NCBI GenBank assembly: GCA_023301705.1 | Contig: JALZUE010000010.1 | Coordinates: forward strand, 1 to 45,085 | Source of the DNA: Alteromonadaceae bacterium | Lineage (GTDB): Bacteria; Pseudomonadota; Gammaproteobacteria; Enterobacterales; Alteromonadaceae | Length of the DNA: 45,085 bases | Reading direction: 5' to 3' | In this document: in pieces, positions 11,151 to 43,645 of the stretch | Position numbering within the stretch: position 1 is the stretch's first letter | Layout of the letters: each line of letters begins with the position of its first letter | The notes under the pieces: model-generated | What the model was told of the DNA's origin: nothing | What the model saw: only the letters and a program-made list of their open reading frames with translations | Databases searched by the model: none | Program-made: the position numbers and the translations under genes

Positions 11151-11501
11151 ATGAATAAGCAACAAGCAAAATTAGCTTTAGTTTTAGGTTGTGCAATTGC
11201 CGCTTCAGGTACCGCAGTTGCGGCTCCAAATGATCAATTAACGCTTGCTGAAAATGCTCCTGAGCAAATTCAACTTGCTGTTTCAGAATGGAAAAAAGGT
11301 ACACGCTTACGTGGCCGTAAAGACAAATGTTTTGGTATTGCACTAGCTGGTGAAAACGATTGTGCTGCTGGCGCAGGTACTAGTTGTGAAGGTACTTCTA
11401 CAGAAGACTTCCAAAAAGATGCGTGGACATATTCACCTAAAGGTTCATGTGAATTTATCAATTCTCCTCATGGTCCAGGTTCTAAAAAGCCTATCTCTTA
11501 A
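11151..11501 (+). CDS. bufA1: Bufferin-type copper-buffering precursor peptide (BufA1/DUF2282)
   Basis: The 116-residue protein has a signal peptide (positive MNKQQAK, hydrophobic core, cleavage near AVAA at 22-25). The mature part carries four cysteines (60, 71, 79, 100) in [22 protein letters not shown] and GSCEF, the DUF2282 pattern. These peptides are modified on cysteines by a DUF692 (MNIO) enzyme with a DUF2063 partner, exported to the periplasm and bind copper. All these partners follow directly, so the assignment is strong. ATG at 11151 has a GAGG site upstream. Confidence 0.9.
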
Positions 11502-11516
11502 TTGAGGGAACGAGCT

Positions 11517-12362
11517 ATGTATAATTCATTGCCAGCAGACGCTGGCATTGGACTTAAACCTGAGTTTTTTTCAGAATTACTGAATTATAATCAACTTGGT
11601 CTTTGGTTTGAAATTCATGCTGAGAATTACTTAATTAGCGGTGGGCCTAGGCTCGATACGTTAATTGAAATAGCTCAAAAAACACCTATTAGTATACATG
11701 GTGTAGGGGCTTCATTAGGAAGCCCTGAACCTATTAGCAATGATCATCTACAACGTATTAAACGTTTGTGTGAATTAGTACCATTTGCTTCATTTTCTGA
11801 ACATATTGCTTGGTCAGGCTTTGAAGGCAATTATTTTAATAATTTAATGCCTGCACCGCTAACAAAAGCAAGTGTAAAGTTCACTTCTGATAATATTAAT
11901 CGTTTACAAGATGTCATTCAACGACCCATTTTAGTTGAAAATCCATCTAATTATATTGAATTAATGTCAGATCTTGGCGAAGCAGATTTTTTAATGCAAT
12001 TAGTCAATAATACTGGTTGCGGTTTATTACTTGATGTAAATAATCTTTATATCAGTGGTAATAATATAAATATAGATGTTCCTGCTTATATCGACACTTT
12101 AGATAAAGATGTTATTGGTGAAATTCATATTGCTGGCCATACTGAAGATCCCAATATTCCTAATCTATTAATTGATTCTCATGATGCACCTATTGCAACA
12201 AATGTATGGGAATTGCTTGATAGTGTTTTACTAAAAACAGGCCCTAAACCAGTTTTAATTGAACGCGATTCAAACCTCCCGCCATTATCAGAATTAATGA
12301 AAGAAAGAGACTTTGCTTCTCAAATTATTCAATCTAGTCGCCAAAGGCTTGCACATGGATGA
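11517..12362 (+). CDS. bufB: BufB, DUF692 family multinuclear non-heme iron oxidase
   Basis: A 281-residue TIM-barrel protein of the DUF692/MNIO family. Hallmarks are GIGLKPEFF near the start, FEIHAENYL, HGVGASLGSPEP, SEHIAW, VENPSNYI, DVNNLYIS, GEIHIAGH and LIERDSNLP, which supply the histidine, aspartate and glutamate iron ligands. The enzyme oxidises cysteines of the BufA precursor to form heterocycles. I take ATG 11517, with GAGGGA eight bases upstream, rather than the ttg at 11502. It begins 15 bases after bufA1 and its stop overlaps the start of bufC. Confidence 0.92.
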   Translation: MYNSLPADAGIGLKPEFFSELLNYNQLGLWFEIHAENYLISGGPRLDTLIEIAQKTPISIHGVGASLGSPEPISNDHLQRIKRLCELVPFASFSEHIAWSGFEGNYFNNLMPAPLTKASVKFTSDNINRLQDVIQRPILVENPSNYIELMSDLGEADFLMQLVNNTGCGLLLDVNNLYISGNNINIDVPAYIDTLDKDVIGEIHIAGHTEDPNIPNLLIDSHDAPIATNVWELLDSVLLKTGPKPVLIERDSNLPPLSELMKERDFASQIIQSSRQRLAHG

Positions 12363-13110
12363 TTATTTTTCGGCATTAGCACAATATGTAAAAAATAATG
12401 ATAGTACCGCTATTCGTTCGTTTCTAAGTAATGATACCGATGAGCAAAAACTTATTATTTTTAGAAATACGTTTCTTTCATCATGTGTTGAAACCTTAAA
12501 AAGAAGATTTCCATCGTGTGTTACTGTTTTAGGTAATGATTTTTTTCATGAAATATCGCGTCAATATGTTGAATTAAATACACCGCGCTCAAAAGTATTA
12601 GCCGACTATGGTGAATCAATGCCTGCTTTTTTAGATAATGCGCTTAAAGCACAAAATTTAGAAAATTTAGGTTATGTTACTGATTTAGCAAAACTAGATA
12701 ATGCATGGAATGAAGTATATTTTGCGTCACGAAATATACTACCAAATGAACAAGACTTAGCACGCTGGATGGAGAATATTGATTCAATATCGCTTTCTTT
12801 GTGTACAAGTGCTTCATTAATTATGACACAATGGGGTGTTTCAAACGTTTGGTCTGCTCTTAAATCAGGTGCACTAACTGAACAATATGAAATAACTCCT
12901 GAAAAAGAATATATTTTAATGTGGAGAGATACTGAAGGCCTTATATTGCATCATTCTTTAACACACGAAGAGTGGTTATTTATCTACAGTATTAAGCAAG
13001 GAAAGTCTCTCACATTAGCAGCAGAAGAAGCATCAGGCACTGGTGAAATAGATATCAGTACAGTTTTTTCTCAACTTATAGCCAATAATTTATTAATTGA
13101 GAAGGTTTAA
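12355..13110 (+). CDS. bufC: BufC, DUF2063 partner protein of the DUF692 enzyme
   Basis: About 251 residues with the DUF2063 domain in the N-terminal 100 residues (FRNTFLSSCVETLKRRFP, VLGNDFFHEISRQYVE, YGESMPAFL), then a winged-helix-like C-terminal half. Proteins of this type bind the BufA leader and present it to the MNIO enzyme. The ATG at 12355 overlaps the bufB stop by 8 bases (ATGGATGA), an arrangement that favours coupled translation and equal amounts of the two partners. The frame is open further upstream inside bufB but that would add an unlikely extension. Confidence 0.9.
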   Translation: MDDYFSALAQYVKNNDSTAIRSFLSNDTDEQKLIIFRNTFLSSCVETLKRRFPSCVTVLGNDFFHEISRQYVELNTPRSKVLADYGESMPAFLDNALKAQNLENLGYVTDLAKLDNAWNEVYFASRNILPNEQDLARWMENIDSISLSLCTSASLIMTQWGVSNVWSALKSGALTEQYEITPEKEYILMWRDTEGLILHHSLTHEEWLFIYSIKQGKSLTLAAEEASGTGEIDISTVFSQLIANNLLIEKV

Positions 13111-13112
13111 CA

Positions 13113-13634
13113 ATGAATTTAATAATTTCTTTATATCAACAGTTTACGGGTTTAGCGAATCGATTCGCTTCAGACATTACATTATTACTTTTGCGCTTAA
13201 TGGTCGCAAAAATATTTTTAGATTCAGGTTTATCTAAATGGACTGGTTTTTTACAGTTTAATCAAGATAAGTATGACTTATTTTTATATGAATTTTTCTG
13301 TCCTGACCCTATACGCGAAGGTGCATTATTGTTATGTAACCCTAAAACTCTAGATTATGTCGATGGTTCTCTAACAGTTTCAATTGTTGAATCATTAGCC
13401 TTAATTGCCGGTGTTATGGAAGTAGTATTGCCAATATTATTAATTCTTGGCATTGCAACGCGTATTGGCGCTGCTGGTCTAATGGGTATGACATTATTCA
13501 TTCAATTGGCTGTTTTCCCAGAATGGTCTCATTGGTGGAATCCAGCAGGATGGTGGTTCTTAACATTACTAGCTATCTTCTCATTTGGCCCAGGTAAACT
13601 TTCTTTAGATAAATTATTAAAGTTAGAAAAATAG
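13113..13634 (+). CDS. DoxX family membrane protein of the bufferin operon
   Basis: A 173-residue DoxX-type protein with four predicted membrane helices (about 22-40, 85-112, 116-135, 145-160). LRLMVAKIFLDSGLSKW and the GVMEVVLPILLILGIATRIGA region are typical of the family. It starts 2 bases after the bufC stop, and a DoxX gene is a usual fourth member of bufferin operons. The role is not established; redox or membrane delivery during copper stress is the usual guess. A cysteine pair (C63, C75) lies in a periplasmic loop (FFCPDP, LLLCNP). Confidence 0.85.
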   Translation: MNLIISLYQQFTGLANRFASDITLLLLRLMVAKIFLDSGLSKWTGFLQFNQDKYDLFLYEFFCPDPIREGALLLCNPKTLDYVDGSLTVSIVESLALIAGVMEVVLPILLILGIATRIGAAGLMGMTLFIQLAVFPEWSHWWNPAGWWFLTLLAIFSFGPGKLSLDKLLKLEK

Positions 13635-33011: not shown

Positions 33012-34112
33012 ATGAAATTCAACCGTGTCGTTATTAAAGTAGGTAGCGCATTAATTGCTCCTAATGGTCAGGGTTGCAGCTCTCAATTCGTTGAAAAAAT
33101 TGCACTCTTTATTAACCAATTTCACAAACAAAATATCGATGTTATTTTAGTTTCGTCCGGTAGTGTTGCTGCAGGTAGACACTTAATTCAACATGGTTCC
33201 CCAATACCTTCATTGCCCGCAAAACAAGCAATGGCATCTGTAGGTCAAATGCAAATGATGCAAAATTGGCAAAACCATATTACGCAACCATGCAGTCAAT
33301 TACTGATAACACACGCCGACTTAAAAAATCGTGAACGTTATATTAATATCAAAAACACACTAAGCGTTTTATTAAAAAACAACATATTACCCATCGTGAA
33401 TGAAAATGACACAGTAGCAACAGATGAACTAAAAGTCGGCGATAACGATAACTTAGCCGCACTTATTGCATTAATAAGCGAAGCTGACAGCTTATTTATT
33501 TTAAGTGACATTAATGGTTTGTACGATGCAGACCCTCGTTCAAACCCCAATGCAAAAATGATAAAAGAAGTGCCAAAAATTACTGCAGACATATATAAAA
33601 TGGCAGGAGTTACTACTAATGTTATTGCAACAGGCGGTATGAAAACAAAAATAGAGGCTGCAGATAAAGCAACTGAAAATGGCATTGATACTTATATTAT
33701 TAATGGAAACAACCCGAAGGTATTTGAGCAGCTATTACAAAAAATTAACCCTGGCACTTGCTTCTTAGCTCAACAAAGTACTGCAAAAGCAAAACAACAG
33801 TGGTTGAAACATACCTTAAAAAGCCAAGGTGAGGTATTATTAGATAATGGCGCCAGTAATGCCTTGATAGAAAAAGGCGCTTCATTACTTTCTTCGGGCA
33901 TCACTGAAGTATCTGGTAAGTTTTCCGCTGGTGAAGCGGTTAATATAATTAATAATGAAACCAAGCAAATTATTGCCAAAGGCATTAGCCAATATAATTA
34001 CCTCGATTTAGACAAGGTCAAAGGGCAAAAAAGTGATAAAATCGACGAGATTTTAGGTTATTGTCCAAGTAAAGTCGTTGTACATCGTGATGACATGATC
34101 ATCACCTCGTAA
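33012..34112 (+). CDS. proB: Glutamate 5-kinase with PUA domain
   Basis: A 366-residue enzyme making gamma-glutamyl phosphate, the first step of proline synthesis. The amino-acid-kinase domain starts VVIKVGSALIA and includes VSSGSVAAG, PIVNENDTVATDE, VGDNDNLAALIA and ATGGMKTKIEAADKA. A PUA domain follows from about 275 (LLDNGASNALIEKGASLLSSG). Length is that of the E. coli protein, which is feedback inhibited by proline. It has TTGGAGAA upstream and proA 23 bases downstream. Confidence 0.96.
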   Translation: MKFNRVVIKVGSALIAPNGQGCSSQFVEKIALFINQFHKQNIDVILVSSGSVAAGRHLIQHGSPIPSLPAKQAMASVGQMQMMQNWQNHITQPCSQLLITHADLKNRERYINIKNTLSVLLKNNILPIVNENDTVATDELKVGDNDNLAALIALISEADSLFILSDINGLYDADPRSNPNAKMIKEVPKITADIYKMAGVTTNVIATGGMKTKIEAADKATENGIDTYIINGNNPKVFEQLLQKINPGTCFLAQQSTAKAKQQWLKHTLKSQGEVLLDNGASNALIEKGASLLSSGITEVSGKFSAGEAVNIINNETKQIIAKGISQYNYLDLDKVKGQKSDKIDEILGYCPSKVVVHRDDMIITS

Positions 34113-34135
34113 GCTTATTAAAATAGAGATATAAC

Positions 34136-35392
34136 ATGAACAGTACATTTAACATTGCCGACATGGCTGCACAAACACGAGTAGCAAGCCGAGAAGTTGC
34201 GCAATTAACCACTACCGAAAAAAATGATTTAATATTAGCCATGGCTGCTGGTATTGAAGCACAAGCTGACAATATTCTAAAAGACAATGAATTAGATATT
34301 CAAGCAGGTCGTGACAAAGGTTTATCAGAAGCCATGCTTGATCGTTTATTGCTAACAGAGGCGCGTGTACAAGATATTGCCAGTGCAATGCGTGATATTG
34401 TTAGTTTAGAAGATCCTGTTGGTTCAATGTCGAATGTTAGCTTACGCCCTAACGGTATGCAGGTAGGTAAAATGCGTATTCCTTTAGGTGTTGTTGCCAT
34501 GATTTACGAAGCACGTCCAAATGTAACAGCAGAAGCTGCAGCATTATGCATAAAATCAGGTAACGCAGTTATTTTACGTGGTGGTTCTGAAGCCATTCAC
34601 AGTAACTTAGCACTTGCTAAATGTTTACATAATGTATTATCAGCAAATGGGTTAAACCCAGATATGATTGCGGTAATACCTGATACAAGCCGTTCAGTCA
34701 TTGAAGGGCTATTACAACAACGTGAGTCTATTGATTTAGTGATTCCGCGCGGTGGTGAAGGCTTAATTAACTACGTAACTGAAAACAGTAAAATACCTGT
34801 TATTCAACATTTTAAAGGGGTTTGTCATTTATTTGTTGATAAGTTTGCCGACTTAACAAAAGCCACTAATATTTTAGTGAATGGTAAAACACAGCGCCCA
34901 AGCGCCTGCAATGCACTTGAAACGTTACTGGTTCACCAAGATATTGCAGATAAATTTTTACCTGTTGCCGCTGAGGGTTTAGCTGAGTTTGGTGTAAAGG
35001 TACACGCTTGTGAACAAAGTCAACAATACTTTGCTGATGCAACAATCGCTACCATCGAAGACTTTAATGCAGAATATTTAGCACAAGAAATTGCTGTAAA
35101 AGTTGTAAACGGTTACGACGCAGCTATTGAACACATTAACAAATATACGTCTGATCATACTGAAGTCATTATTACCCAAGATACAACACGTAGCCAAAAA
35201 TTCATTCGTCAAATAAACTCATCGGTAGTGATGGTGAATGCATCATCTCGTTTTTCTGATGGTGGTCAATTAGGTTTAGGTTCAGAAATTGGTATATCAA
35301 CCAGTAAACTTCATGCATACGGACCTATGGGGTTAGCATCATTAACCACTGAAAAGTTTGTTGTGATTGGTGACGGACAAACTCGCGACTAA
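34136..35392 (+). CDS. proA: Gamma-glutamyl phosphate reductase
   Basis: A 418-residue aldehyde-dehydrogenase-fold enzyme that reduces gamma-glutamyl phosphate to the semialdehyde with NADPH. The catalytic cysteine is in KTQRPSACNALETLLVH; MIYEARPNVTAEAAALCIKSGNAVILRGG and SSRFSDGGQLGLGSEIGIST are the family motifs. It follows proB after 23 bases and ends at a terminator, so proBA is a two-gene operon. Confidence 0.97.
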   Translation: MNSTFNIADMAAQTRVASREVAQLTTTEKNDLILAMAAGIEAQADNILKDNELDIQAGRDKGLSEAMLDRLLLTEARVQDIASAMRDIVSLEDPVGSMSNVSLRPNGMQVGKMRIPLGVVAMIYEARPNVTAEAAALCIKSGNAVILRGGSEAIHSNLALAKCLHNVLSANGLNPDMIAVIPDTSRSVIEGLLQQRESIDLVIPRGGEGLINYVTENSKIPVIQHFKGVCHLFVDKFADLTKATNILVNGKTQRPSACNALETLLVHQDIADKFLPVAAEGLAEFGVKVHACEQSQQYFADATIATIEDFNAEYLAQEIAVKVVNGYDAAIEHINKYTSDHTEVIITQDTTRSQKFIRQINSSVVMVNASSRFSDGGQLGLGSEIGISTSKLHAYGPMGLASLTTEKFVVIGDGQTRD

Positions 35393-36930: not shown

Positions 36931-38433
36931 TTATTTAGCTTTTTTCTTATCTGCTCTTTCTTGTTTTCTTTTTTTTGCTTCGATATAAGCAACATCTGTT
37001 TCTTCAATTACCTTTTCTATAAAAATAGAAAAATCAGCCTGCATTGCTTCTGGATCACCAAATGCTTTTGTAAATTGTTTTAAACGAAGATTTCTACCTG
37101 ATTTAGCACGCTCATACTTTGTAGTGCGAGATTTAGCAATAATAGTTAAATATTCTTTAAATTCAGCTGGGTAGTACGTATATAGAAATCGAATGAGTAT
37201 TGAACCAAGTGCATAAATATCTGATTGATTACTTTCATTACTAAACTCTTCATCACTACCATCAAAAGTCACAAGTTGCTTCAGTGTTATTAATGAGCCA
37301 TCGTTAAATCTTTTTTTAATGGGTAATACACGTCTAAATGCATAATTATTAGTATGCGGCCCAAAAGGTTTCTTTATATTATTATACTCAAAGCTTGCTG
37401 ATAAGCCTGCTGTGAACCACCTAGAATATTTAACGTCTAAAGAACGAAGCCCTGTTTTATGCATAACTTGTGCACTTACCGAATGTACAATAGTTTTAGC
37501 GTTCACTTTTAAATTTTTACCTTTTTTATTAACACCTCTTTCAAACATAAAAATAGCTTTTTCTTTAAAAATATACGTACTACTCGAATTATTCGATCCG
37601 TATTTGTCCCCAGTAATAGAACGGTAATATCGGCTGTAATCATCTTTTGATGCTAGAATAACAGCAGTCATTTTTTCTTCTATAGGTTTATTTCTGAGTC
37701 CTAATGCAACTAAAAAGCTAATATTATTTCGATAAGTTGTTTCCATTACTTTAGCTACTTTATTTTTAATATATTTTTTATTGCTCGTCGAATAAATAAT
37801 ACTCCAATGTTCTGTTTCATAGATATGAAACGGTTCTTTAAAGTATTTACTGGCTTTCTTTTGAGCATTAATTGCATGTTGAGTTGTAGGCAAATCTTTA
37901 TCTTCGAATTGCTCAACAAACTCATCACTATTATGTCGTAAATAAAGCTTGTATCTACGAATTGCATTAGCCTTTGCTTCCTCCTCACTTACGCCGTTTA
38001 CTTGCTTTTGTTCCAACGCAGTAATATCTGATAATATAGGTAATAATTCTTCTCCATGTTTACCATATTTCATTTCATATAAGCTCAATAACTCTTTAAA
38101 TATAGTGTGCGCTTTAACTAAGTTTTCTGTCACCTGTAAGTTAAGTGCATAATTGTCTGTCGCCATTAAACGCTGAGGATCAGCAGGCGATAAGTTATCT
38201 TTTGCTAATTGATAACTTTGTTCCGCAAAAATAAGTGCTTGCTGATAATCGCCAGTATTAATTAATTCTTGATGTTGTGAAAATGCAGCATTTATATCTA
38301 CTAACTGATTAATATCATTTTTGTTTATCTTTATATTTTGTTCTGAAGGTTTTTCTATACTGTAAGCATTATTTATTATCGTTAAAAAAAGCAGCAAACT
38401 GTATAACCAAGGTTTCATCTTCGTGAGGTTCAT
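36931..38433 (-). CDS. Secreted DUF1570-like protein with a disabled zinc-protease motif
   Basis: A 500-residue protein with a signal peptide (cleavage near NAYS, residue 25), a TPR-like helical region (45-140), and a C-terminal half laid out like DUF1570 gluzincin proteases (EHWSIIYST, EKMTAVILASKDDYSRYY, then the motif region). The usual HExxHQ reads H317-S-V-S-A-Q, and the downstream W-x-x-EGLA-x-xFE reads W339-F-T-A-G-L-S-A-S-F-E. The catalytic glutamate, second histidine and third ligand are thus replaced, so it should not be an active protease. The tail is lysine-rich. It is divergent from the RHH-EF-hand gene. Confidence 0.65.
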   Translation of the reverse strand: MNLTKMKPWLYSLLLFLTIINNAYSIEKPSEQNIKINKNDINQLVDINAAFSQHQELINTGDYQQALIFAEQSYQLAKDNLSPADPQRLMATDNYALNLQVTENLVKAHTIFKELLSLYEMKYGKHGEELLPILSDITALEQKQVNGVSEEEAKANAIRRYKLYLRHNSDEFVEQFEDKDLPTTQHAINAQKKASKYFKEPFHIYETEHWSIIYSTSNKKYIKNKVAKVMETTYRNNISFLVALGLRNKPIEEKMTAVILASKDDYSRYYRSITGDKYGSNNSSSTYIFKEKAIFMFERGVNKKGKNLKVNAKTIVHSVSAQVMHKTGLRSLDVKYSRWFTAGLSASFEYNNIKKPFGPHTNNYAFRRVLPIKKRFNDGSLITLKQLVTFDGSDEEFSNESNQSDIYALGSILIRFLYTYYPAEFKEYLTIIAKSRTTKYERAKSGRNLRLKQFTKAFGDPEAMQADFSIFIEKVIEETDVAYIEAKKRKQERADKKKAK

Positions 38434-38612
38434 CTCTAGCGCCCTATACTTTATGATTTATTGACTTTCAAAATAAATGTATAGAAAAATAACCGATTAC
38501 ACTAGAAAAACCATGTCAGGACACGTTAATAGTGCCTACAAAGGCTATTCTTTGGTAAATTAATCATATAGCAGAAACCTAAAGCTAACGAATATTAACT
38601 TAGAGAAAAATA
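38434..38612. promoter_or_regulatory. Divergent promoter region of the DUF1570-like and RHH-EF-hand genes
   Basis: This 179-base gap carries the promoters of both genes. No clear operator repeat was found by eye. It is the natural place to look for a binding site of the RHH domain encoded on its right. Confidence 0.4.
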
Positions 38613-39389
38613 GTGCAAAAAAATAATAGTAAAAAAATTGCCAAGGTAGAGGTTCGCATTCCTCCGGAAGTAAAAGAATGCTTTGCAGAAAAATGTGAAA
38701 CTCAAGGGAAAACAGTTAGTGAAACCGTTAGAGATTTTATTCATCAACACATAAATAGCGATCATCTAGATACAGCGAATAATAAAAAAACACTTATTAA
38801 AAAACTATCTATATTATCCATTGCGATAATCAGTATTGTAGTAACTACAAGTTTTATTACTAACTCACAATTATTTAATGATGTACCTGATCCAAAAATT
38901 GTTAATATTTTCAATAAATATGACCGTGATCATAATGGGCTATTAACACTTTCTGATTTCGAAGAATATAAGCATAATAAAATAAATCGCATACGAGAAG
39001 GAAAGAGTAAATACGTCAATAAATCATTTTCCGATGGCCAACCATTTTCATTAATAAGCGCCGAAGGGTTTAATGAAAAATATAACTCCGCACTAAAGTT
39101 GGCAAAATACGATTTGAATGTTGACGGGAAGGTTAATTTAAAAGAGTTTATCCAATCAAAACCAAAATTGAATTACATTTCTTGGGCTTCATTCAATTTA
39201 CTTGATACTAATAAAGACACGATATTATCTAAAGAAGAGTTACTCAATTATGCTAATGAATGGTTCGGTGGATACCCATTACCCCAAAAACGAGCCAGGC
39301 TACATACAAATGCTAGACTGTGGAAATTAGATGACGATAAGAACGGGCAAATATCTTACGAAGAGTTTAAACAATACAAAGAGAATTAA
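38613..39389 (+). CDS. Membrane-tethered ribbon-helix-helix protein with four extracytoplasmic EF-hands
   Basis: A 258-residue protein with three clear parts. Residues 10-47 read as a ribbon-helix-helix DNA-binding domain (beta strand KVEVRIPPEV, helix KECFAEKCETQG, then KTVSETVRDFIHQHI). A lysine-rich stretch and a single membrane helix (65-83) follow. The rest carries four 12-residue EF-hand loops: 104-115 (DRDHNG), 167-178 (DLNVDG), 198-209 (DTNKDT) and 240-251 (DDDKNG). The positive residues before the helix put the DNA-binding part in the cytoplasm and the EF-hands outside. It starts with GTG and ends at a strong terminator. A role as a calcium-sensing one-component regulator is an inference. 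Confidence 0.75.
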   Translation: MQKNNSKKIAKVEVRIPPEVKECFAEKCETQGKTVSETVRDFIHQHINSDHLDTANNKKTLIKKLSILSIAIISIVVTTSFITNSQLFNDVPDPKIVNIFNKYDRDHNGLLTLSDFEEYKHNKINRIREGKSKYVNKSFSDGQPFSLISAEGFNEKYNSALKLAKYDLNVDGKVNLKEFIQSKPKLNYISWASFNLLDTNKDTILSKEELLNYANEWFGGYPLPQKRARLHTNARLWKLDDDKNGQISYEEFKQYKEN

Positions 39390-39438: not shown

Positions 39439-39472
39439 AAAATCGCGTTAAGGCAGCCCTTAACGCGATTTT
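39439..39472. terminator. Bidirectional terminator between the EF-hand gene and the MFS gene
   Basis: A 15-bp perfect stem (aaaatcgcgttaagg and its complement) with a 4-base loop and A/T flanks, between converging genes. Confidence 0.92.
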
Positions 39473-41413: not shown

Positions 41414-42841
41414 ATTATCAGTACTCCGGTAATTACTTCATTCATTTTATACATGCTACTAATGCTTGCGATTGGTGGTTATTTCTATTTTAAAACTCAC
41501 AATTTAAACGATTACGTTTTAGGTGGTAGAAACCTAGGCCCTACTGTCACCGCACTTAGTGCAGGTGCATCAGATATGAGTGGATGGTTATTGCTTGGTT
41601 TACCCGGCATGATATACACATCTGGCTTTAATGGTATTTGGCTCGCCATAGGTTTAGTGATTGGCGCTTATTTGAATTGGCATTATGTAGCTAAAAAACT
41701 ACGTATTACTACACAGCAACTTAATAATGCCATTACTATTCCTGATTACTTATCTAATCGCTTTAACGACAAAGGCAGTTTGCTAAGAGTAATAACGGCA
41801 ATTGTTATTTTACTATTCTATACCTTGTATACTTCTTCAGGCCTAGTAGGTGGGGCAAAACTATTTGAAGCCACCTTTAATTTAGCGTATCAAGATGCTT
41901 TGCTCATTGGCAGTATCATTATTATTTCATATACCTTTTTAGGTGGTTATAACGCTGTTTCGTGGACTGACTTTATACAAGGCATATTAATGTTGCTGGC
42001 CTTACTGATAACACCTTTAGTGGTTATTTTTGAGTTAGGCGGCCTTCAGCAAGGTTTAAACCTTATTCAAACAAATGCACCAGAGCATTTAAATATATTC
42101 AGTGGCGCGACCCTCATTAGCATTATTTCACTAATGGCATGGGGCTTAGGTTATTTTGGTCAACCTCATATATTAGTGCGATTTATGTCTATTAAGCATG
42201 AAAATGATATTGCTAAAGCTAAAACCATTGGTATGAGCTGGATGATTCTTTCAGTGCTTGGTTCATTGTGCGTTGGCTTTTTTGGTTATGCTTATGTGCT
42301 AGCATCAGGCATAGAAATGCATGACAGTGAAAAAGTATTCATTACGTTAACACAACTATTATTTCAGCCATGGATAGCAGGCTTTCTATTGGCAGCGATA
42401 TTAGCTGCTATAATGAGTACAATAGATTCACAATTATTAGTATCGTCTTCGGTATTAACGCGTGATATTTACCAAGCTTTATTCAGAAAACAAGCAAGTG
42501 ACAAAGAGCTTGTTTGGGTTGGCCGTGCAACCGTTATTATAATAGCAATAATTGCTTTGGCATTATCATTTAATGAAAACTCAAGTGTATTAAGCTTAGT
42601 TTCATATGCTTGGGCGGGTTTTGGCGCTGCATTTGGGCCTCTCATTATTTTATCTTTGTACAACAAACACATTAATAAAAGTGGTGCGTTAGCAGGTATT
42701 TTAACCGGAAGTATCACTGTCATTATTTGGAAAAACCTTACTGGTGGAATATTTGATCTTTATGAATTATTTCCTAGTTTCATTCTTGCTTGGCTAGCGA
42801 TATTAATTGTCAGTCGATTAACAAAAACAACGAATGAATAA
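41414..42841 (+). CDS. putP: Sodium/proline symporter PutP, apparent non-canonical start
   Basis: An SSS-family transporter. LGGRNLGPTVTALSAGASDMSGWLLLGLPG, GGYNAVSWTDFIQG, AWGLGYFGQPHILVRFM and KELVWVGRATV match PutP of enterobacteria closely. The first ATG (41453) would cut the first membrane helix, since the codons before it still read STPVITSFILY, matching the E. coli start (MAISTPML). No ATG, GTG or TTG exists between the in-frame stop at 41390 and 41453, so translation probably begins at ATT 41414 (or a nearby ATA/ATC), giving about 475 residues. A second glutamate kinase gene follows after 39 bases. Confidence 0.88.
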   Translation: MISTPVITSFILYMLLMLAIGGYFYFKTHNLNDYVLGGRNLGPTVTALSAGASDMSGWLLLGLPGMIYTSGFNGIWLAIGLVIGAYLNWHYVAKKLRITTQQLNNAITIPDYLSNRFNDKGSLLRVITAIVILLFYTLYTSSGLVGGAKLFEATFNLAYQDALLIGSIIIISYTFLGGYNAVSWTDFIQGILMLLALLITPLVVIFELGGLQQGLNLIQTNAPEHLNIFSGATLISIISLMAWGLGYFGQPHILVRFMSIKHENDIAKAKTIGMSWMILSVLGSLCVGFFGYAYVLASGIEMHDSEKVFITLTQLLFQPWIAGFLLAAILAAIMSTIDSQLLVSSSVLTRDIYQALFRKQASDKELVWVGRATVIIIAIIALALSFNENSSVLSLVSYAWAGFGAAFGPLIILSLYNKHINKSGALAGILTGSITVIIWKNLTGGIFDLYELFPSFILAWLAILIVSRLTKTTNE

Positions 42842-42880
42842 TCTTCCCCTTATTAAATTTAGAAAAGATATTTTTACACT

Positions 42881-43645
42881 ATGAAAAGAATTGTTATTAA
42901 AGTTGGTAGCGCTGTTTTAACTGAAAAAAACAGAATTGCTAAAGAGCGTATGCTCAATTTAGTTACCCTAATAGCTAACTTACGCGTTAAATATAAAGTT
43001 ATTCTTGTTACCTCTGGTGCTGTTGCCGCAGGTTACTCAGCACTAAAACTAGACAAACGTAAACTCATTGGTAAACGTGCATTGGCTGCTGCAGGCCAGC
43101 CAATTTTAATGACGTCATACAAGAAGAAGTTTGATATTTACGAAATAGATACCGCTCAAATTCTCTTAACAGAAGATGACTTTGACTCACGTAAACGTAC
43201 AAAAATGTTTCAAGAAATTATTGACGCACATCTAGAAAATGACATTCTACCTATTGTGAATGAAAACGATATTTCATCAACACCAGAGCAGTTATTTGGT
43301 GATAACGATCAATTATCGGCAAATGTTACGGTTGCTACCCATTCAGAGTTATTAGTTATTTTAAGTGATATCGATGGTTATTATGATAAAAACCCTCATG
43401 AACACTCAGACGCAAATATTAATAAAATTGTTCATAAAATCTCGGCAGAAGCCTTGTTAGATCAATCAACACCAAATGACCCTTTCGCAACAGGTGGTAT
43501 AGTCACAAAACTTAAAGCAGCAGACTTTTTACTTAAAAAAGGTAAAAAAATGTTGTTATGTAATGGCTTTAATTTAAGTTCTGCCGAATCATTCTTATTA
43601 CACGACGACCACCAACTGGGTACCTTATTTAAACCCGCAGAGTAA
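42881..43645 (+). CDS. Second glutamate 5-kinase-like protein, lacking the PUA domain
   Basis: A 254-residue amino-acid kinase. RIVIKVGSAVLTE, LVTSGAVAAGYSA, LAAAGQPILMTSY, PIVNENDISSTPEQLFGDNDQLSA and DPFATGGIVTKLKAADF match glutamate 5-kinase throughout, but the protein ends where the PUA domain would start. Such short forms occur as the only ProB in epsilonproteobacteria. Here a full proBA lies 9 kb away. It follows putP in the same direction, so it probably belongs to proline or osmotic balance. Loss of PUA may change its feedback control. It could instead act on a related substrate. Confidence 0.85.
   Translation: MKRIVIKVGSAVLTEKNRIAKERMLNLVTLIANLRVKYKVILVTSGAVAAGYSALKLDKRKLIGKRALAAAGQPILMTSYKKKFDIYEIDTAQILLTEDDFDSRKRTKMFQEIIDAHLENDILPIVNENDISSTPEQLFGDNDQLSANVTVATHSELLVILSDIDGYYDKNPHEHSDANINKIVHKISAEALLDQSTPNDPFATGGIVTKLKAADFLLKKGKKMLLCNGFNLSSAESFLLHDDHQLGTLFKPAE

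Follow-up and report, generated by a model that had tools for sequence, protein, structure and literature searches.

By what route calcium outside the cell acts on bacterial gene expression is still an open question. Could a single chain carry both the calcium-binding and the DNA-binding end of such a route? A gene of an Alteromonadaceae bacterium raises this possibility. It lies on contig JALZUE010000010.1 of assembly GCA_023301705.1, of which positions 1 to 45,085 were analysed (45,085 nucleotides, hereafter the window). A first-pass annotation had read the open reading frame 38613-39389 as a ribbon-helix-helix (RHH) domain, one membrane helix and four EF-hand loops with calcium ligands; sea-water or periplasmic calcium was thought to change dimerisation and so DNA binding. 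The coordinates proved exact, re-translation giving 258 residues, and both the three-part architecture and the four loops were borne out by profiles, shuffled controls, hydropathy and relatives of equal design (Table 1). Most likely, judging from its sequence, the protein belongs among the transmembrane transcription regulators (TTRs), and the combination of RHH and EF-hands is what appears to be new.

The annotated frame is favoured by codon preference in all three parts, weakly in the EF-hand part, and the stop-codon frequency of the window gives a chance of about 1e-8 for an open frame of such length. From the GTG start up to the hydrophobic helix the frame holds no further ATG, GTG or TTG, so that the EF-hand part could not easily be a separate secreted gene. 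Given the terminator-like hairpin that follows the coding sequence, the gene probably ends its own transcript.

Table 1. Features of the RHH-EF-hand gene and its immediate surroundings (positions in the window)
Feature	Position	Strand	Basis and remarks
CDS, RHH - one membrane helix - four EF-hands	38613..39389	+	258 aa, GTG start; ORF list, Pfam, codon preference
RHH domain, residues 7-50	38631..38762	+	Pfam sub-threshold, custom profiles, alignment; strand ~10-17, helices 18-31 and 35-48 (moderate-confidence model)
Predicted membrane helix, residues 65-83	38805..38861	+	Hydropathy, family alignment
EF-hand loop 1, residues 104-115, DRDHNGLLTLSD	38922..38957	+	Pfam, loop alignment
EF-hand loop 2, residues 167-178, DLNVDGKVNLKE	39111..39146	+	Pfam, loop alignment
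EF-hand loop 3, residues 198-209, DTNKDTILSKEE	39204..39239	+	Pfam, loop alignment; T where loop position 6 normally has G
EF-hand loop 4, residues 240-251, DDDKNGQISYEE	39330..39365	+	Pfam, loop alignment
Divergent neighbour, 500 aa, putative signal peptide, TPR then DUF1570 (peptidase-MA-like)	36931..38433	-	ORF list, Pfam; candidate target gene
Intergenic region, 179 bp, common to the divergent gene; candidate operator region	38434..38612	.	Sequence, repeat search
Terminator-like hairpin, bidirectional, 3' of the CDS	39439..39472	.	Hairpin search

In the C-terminal part, Pfam EF-hand_1 matches four stretches (E 8.2e-18), and the X, Y, Z and -Z positions are occupied by D, N or E in all four loops. 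These are 12-residue loops with acidic ligands lying between helices, as is characteristic of the EF-hand superfamily. The model of the XopAW family calcium-binding protein (NF041410) matches the EF-hand part only and scores 35.1 bits against a curated 120, so the protein is not a member of that family.

At the N-terminus (first 93 aa), the Pfam models stay below their cut-offs, with 20.4 bits against 23.4 for RHH_9 and 18.8 against 20.5 for RHH_1. A profile of free-standing RHH relatives scores this segment at 45.1 bits, the best of 20,000 shuffles reaching 14.0, and it is the single strong match among the 272 ORFs of the window (no other exceeds 5.2). A second profile, built on the RHH segments of the remaining members without that of the window protein, gives 49.7 bits (best of 20,000 shuffles, 13.7). 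Free-standing RHH proteins can also fall short of Pfam: of five scanned, three pass the cut-off (RHH_9 or RelB) and two are below it, while among the membrane-bound relatives described below the cut-off is reached in L175. The window protein thus combines the strand-helix-helix pattern of the RHH superfamily with a profile match, and shares the usual helix-B anchor with the Arc/MetJ/CopG group (RHH_9, RHH_1). AF2 models were made from the single sequence; that of the whole protein is too poor for use (pLDDT 34.5), and that of residues 1-62 (pLDDT 62) places the two helices where an RHH has them. With the latter model, Foldseek returned weak PDB matches only, to AvtR, which we take to be an RHH regulator (two chains, E above 2), and to a chain of the F plasmid relaxosome.

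Where else does this architecture occur? No full-length homologue was found in 41 relatives, 397 genomes of the family, 395 of the order, viral contigs, GTDB contigs, plasmids or phages, which suggested an orphan gene. A match in G234 (12-212), with two stops inside, and those to MacB-like ABC proteins in G427, G512 and G537 (4-89) were set aside as chance. A class-wide search with the RHH profile (312 genomes) yielded 19 best and 20 further matches for inspection, the latter mostly with longer frames, and none had a membrane helix after the RHH. Since this profile detects every known member, the family would be rare or absent in the sampled class. The orphan reading was ruled out by a phylum-wide search (388 genomes), in which a match over residues 4-212 (E 1.1e-8) and others were obtained. 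The fusion sought in related genomes is therefore present in the phylum, in several families outside the window's class, but was not found in the genomes searched of its own family, order or class.

After translation, the domain order RHH-membrane helix-EF-hands was seen in L175, L176, L177, L178, L180, L181 and L182, and a 198-aa protein, L179 (G1328:C38:1020942-1021094), carries TonB_C (E 1.2e-7) behind the RHH and the helix. Follow-up in one family added four paralogues, one genome having three copies and another two; one of the three, L205 (7879-8897), is split into two frames and is perhaps a decaying paralogue. The family thus comprises 13 members including the window protein: 11 with at least two EF loops, the split gene, and the TonB_C protein. 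All 12 others keep the RHH segment, as the first-pass reading required, and 11 of them the complete domain order, TonB_C replacing the EF-hands in the twelfth. Four canonical loops are found in seven members (the window protein included), two clear loops in four, and one before the break in the split gene. The out-of-class genomes are, by their gene content, probably Alphaproteobacteria. In a tree of RHH domains the membrane-bound ones cluster (2 changes versus 9.3 in shuffles); this tree, too short to resolve, is compatible with one origin, and an independent fusion may have occurred in the window's lineage. By its sequences, the architecture looks like a real, undescribed family.

The hydrophobic helix is present in all 13 members, always between residues 54 and 96, and in the window protein has a mean Kyte-Doolittle value of 2.23 with a charge of +2 before and 0 after. 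In 12 of 13 members the segment preceding the helix carries a higher charge than the one following it, and in the remaining member the two are equal. Cysteines after the helix are even in number in six members, single in one and absent in six; even counts in six of the seven tails having any are consistent with periplasmic disulfides. Both patterns support, as a prediction rather than a proof, the topology assumed in the first-pass annotation, with the N-terminus inside and the C-terminus outside.

The RHH part carries seven residues invariant in 13/13 members (K7, K8, E13, R15, K21, S36 and R40), and G32 in 12/13. Positions 11, 13 and 15 presumably correspond to the DNA-reading Q9, N11 and R13 of Arc, which would make E13 and R15 the counterparts of N11 and R13, and G32-T34-S36 aligns with what we take, from Arc, to be the N-terminus of helix B that grips the DNA backbone. 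The invariant Glu-Arg pair suggests that all members may read one common kind of operator. Free-standing RHH relatives, which are present in the window's class, differ in having no membrane helix, no EF-hands and no invariant E13; in those compared, this position is L, V, T, Q or R, never E. An invariant acidic residue on the DNA-facing strand is unusual and counts against the reading as a DNA-binding regulator.

How does the protein compare with known systems? In the main text of a census of TTRs, proteins such as ToxR, CadC and TcpP are described as combining a DNA-binding domain and a membrane segment, mostly single-pass, in one protein that senses the outside and regulates from the membrane, the known ones being mostly of HTH type (PMC10269533). 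The window protein is likewise one chain with a putative DNA-binding domain and a membrane segment, and differs by its RHH and EF-hands. Of the two elements in the definition given there, the membrane segment corresponds to the predicted helix, and the DNA-binding domain is recognised at 45-50 bits by the custom RHH models and below threshold by Pfam (PMC10269533). The N-terminal winged-helix (OmpR-like) domain of the ToxR family is not matched by Pfam or NCBIfam, an RHH standing in its place. In EfhP of Pseudomonas aeruginosa (PMC11559002, PMC9132961) and CaBP of Caulobacter (PMC13171946), periplasmic EF-hand proteins exert a Ca2+-responsive influence on transcription; no DNA-binding domain is described in them, and their link to transcription is unresolved (PMC11559002, PMC13171946), whereas the window protein has both ends, EF-hand and RHH, in one chain. 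A precedent for an RHH on a membrane domain is found in VanZ-1 lipocone membrane domains fused to RHH or HTH, for which transcription regulation has been proposed (PMC12419801); these have a VanZ domain instead of a single helix and carry no EF-hands. In agreement with the first-pass annotation, which knew of no described family with this fusion, no Pfam or NCBIfam model covers the whole protein and no paper joining RHH and EF-hand was found in the literature searched; RHH, EF-hands and calcium are all absent from the main text of the TTR census, whose supplementary tables may hold an entry (PMC10269533).

The three-part architecture and its specific RHH signature are conserved in distant bacteria; beyond this, we infer metal binding, signal transfer, DNA binding and targets. 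The protein is probably a membrane-tethered one-component transcription regulator, the EF-hand domain in the periplasm governing the state of an RHH dimer in the cytoplasm. The RHH would bind its operator as a dimer in the cytoplasm, the single helix would cross the inner membrane, and the C-terminal domain with its four EF-hands would lie in the periplasm. A metal, most likely Ca2+, bound to the EF-hands would alter how the periplasmic domains fold or pair, a change that the helix would relay to the RHH dimer and thereby to DNA binding. In RHH proteins the DNA-reading strand pair is made by two chains, so joining or parting the periplasmic domains could switch DNA binding directly. That the outer module is exchanged (EF-hands or TonB_C) on a constant base of RHH and helix is the pattern of a receptor.

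Candidate targets would be the divergent DUF1570 gene and the regulator's own promoter, and because of this divergent arrangement an operator would first be sought in the intergenic region; a repeat search there revealed weak repeats only and no operator. In the divergent protein, the HExxH of peptidase-MA has apparently been lost, HSVSA (VHSVSAQVMHK) standing at the corresponding place in an alignment made by eye, so that it is probably inactive as a peptidase; it has no homologue in 60 related genomes. The wider surroundings comprise proB, proA, an NhaD-like antiporter, the divergent TPR-DUF1570 gene and, further on, genes for an MFS transporter and PutP and a second, short proB; the proline genes flanking the gene thus amount to two proB (one short, 254 aa), proA and putP, at 33012-35392 and 41453-43645. 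The nhaD of the window has its nearest counterparts in Thalassotalea, Pseudocolwellia, Psychrosphaera and Shewanella, which makes a marine gammaproteobacterium the probable source. Synteny around nhaD in named relatives was rejected, none of the other window genes being found in 80 loci. The RHH-EF gene of L201 adjoins proB, proC, proA and putP, a resemblance to the window that, with these two cases, is perhaps due to chance. Directly upstream of the RHH-EF gene lie a BON-MscS protein in L195 and a secreted metallo-beta-lactamase-fold protein in L197; no neighbour is common to all the family loci compared. Elsewhere in the window (11151-13634), a DUF2282 peptide, an MbnB/TglH/ChrH-type enzyme, DUF2063 and DoxX are consecutive and make up a bufferin-like RiPP cluster, a kind already known.

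What does the outer domain sense? Sea water holds about 10 mM Ca2+, nearly constant, and sites of ordinary affinity would remain loaded, which makes the sea-water calcium signal of the first-pass annotation doubtful; Ca2+ depletion, another metal, a protein or an envelope signal is as plausible. It is possible, although unlikely, that the tethered regulator has structural EF-hands, always filled in sea water, and that its cue is a rarer metal (a lanthanide, for example), a protein, envelope stress or a change in osmolarity. Besides the constancy of marine calcium, the variation in loop number from one to four between members, the match of the L177 EF part to lanmodulin (below cut-off) and the location of the window gene among proline and Na+ transport genes point this way, but all four loops of the window protein, and of six relatives, have well-preserved ligands, and the tail is strongly acidic in most members.

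Alternatively, by analogy with the proteolysis of anti-sigma factors or membrane-bound transcription factors, the helix might be an internal signal-peptide-like segment, at which EF-gated periplasmic cleavage would release the EF part and free or remove the RHH. AxA-type motifs, possible signal-peptidase sites, lie just past the hydrophobic core in several out-of-class members (SKA, VAA, ANA, SIA), and three two-EF-hand members are tail-to-tail with the same secreted metallopeptidase of 342-369 aa, which has an invariant HExxH, 34-45% identity and no Pfam family (L201 8992-10086, L204 8040-9149, L206 6662-7690). In L198, a TraB/GumN gene follows directly downstream. Such cleavage is nonetheless quite unlikely: no good site follows the core in the window protein, L178, L181 or L186, an adjoining peptidase is lacking at most loci, and the window's seemingly inactive DUF1570 neighbour, once considered as a homologue of the three HExxH peptidases, is not alignable to them.

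It is also conceivable, but likewise quite unlikely, that the RHH is a cytoplasmic pairing or docking device that does not bind DNA, the whole being anchored in the membrane to bind Ca2+ or act like a chaperone in the periplasm. Contacts between proteins are another use of RHH folds, the invariant E13 puts an acidic residue on the DNA-facing strand, and the TonB_C member suggests a structural periplasmic role; R15 and the helix-B anchors G32, T34 and S36, however, are needs of DNA binding and superfluous for pairing. Finally, a fusion of two genes by faulty assembly or annotation is hardly credible for the window, despite a source genome that is a fragmentary metagenome assembly, 80% complete, in 225 contigs and the sole one of its genus among those compared, because codon preference is continuous and the fusion recurs in complete, independent genomes, which already refutes an artefact for the family as a whole.

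The reading as a membrane-tethered regulator may, more tentatively, be widened to an undescribed family of single-chain Ca2+-gated transcription factors. In each, an RHH that reads DNA through a conserved Glu/Arg pair would be mounted on a membrane helix, the periplasmic module (EF-hands or TonB_C) being interchangeable; the family would extend over two or more classes of Pseudomonadota, some genomes having several copies. If this is true, the RHH, a dimer whose pairing itself reads DNA, would enlarge the set of domains known from membrane-bound regulators, and its outer part would be modular. An EF-hand domain and a DNA-binding fold in one chain would then be the shortest possible route from calcium to gene, and one that is directly testable.
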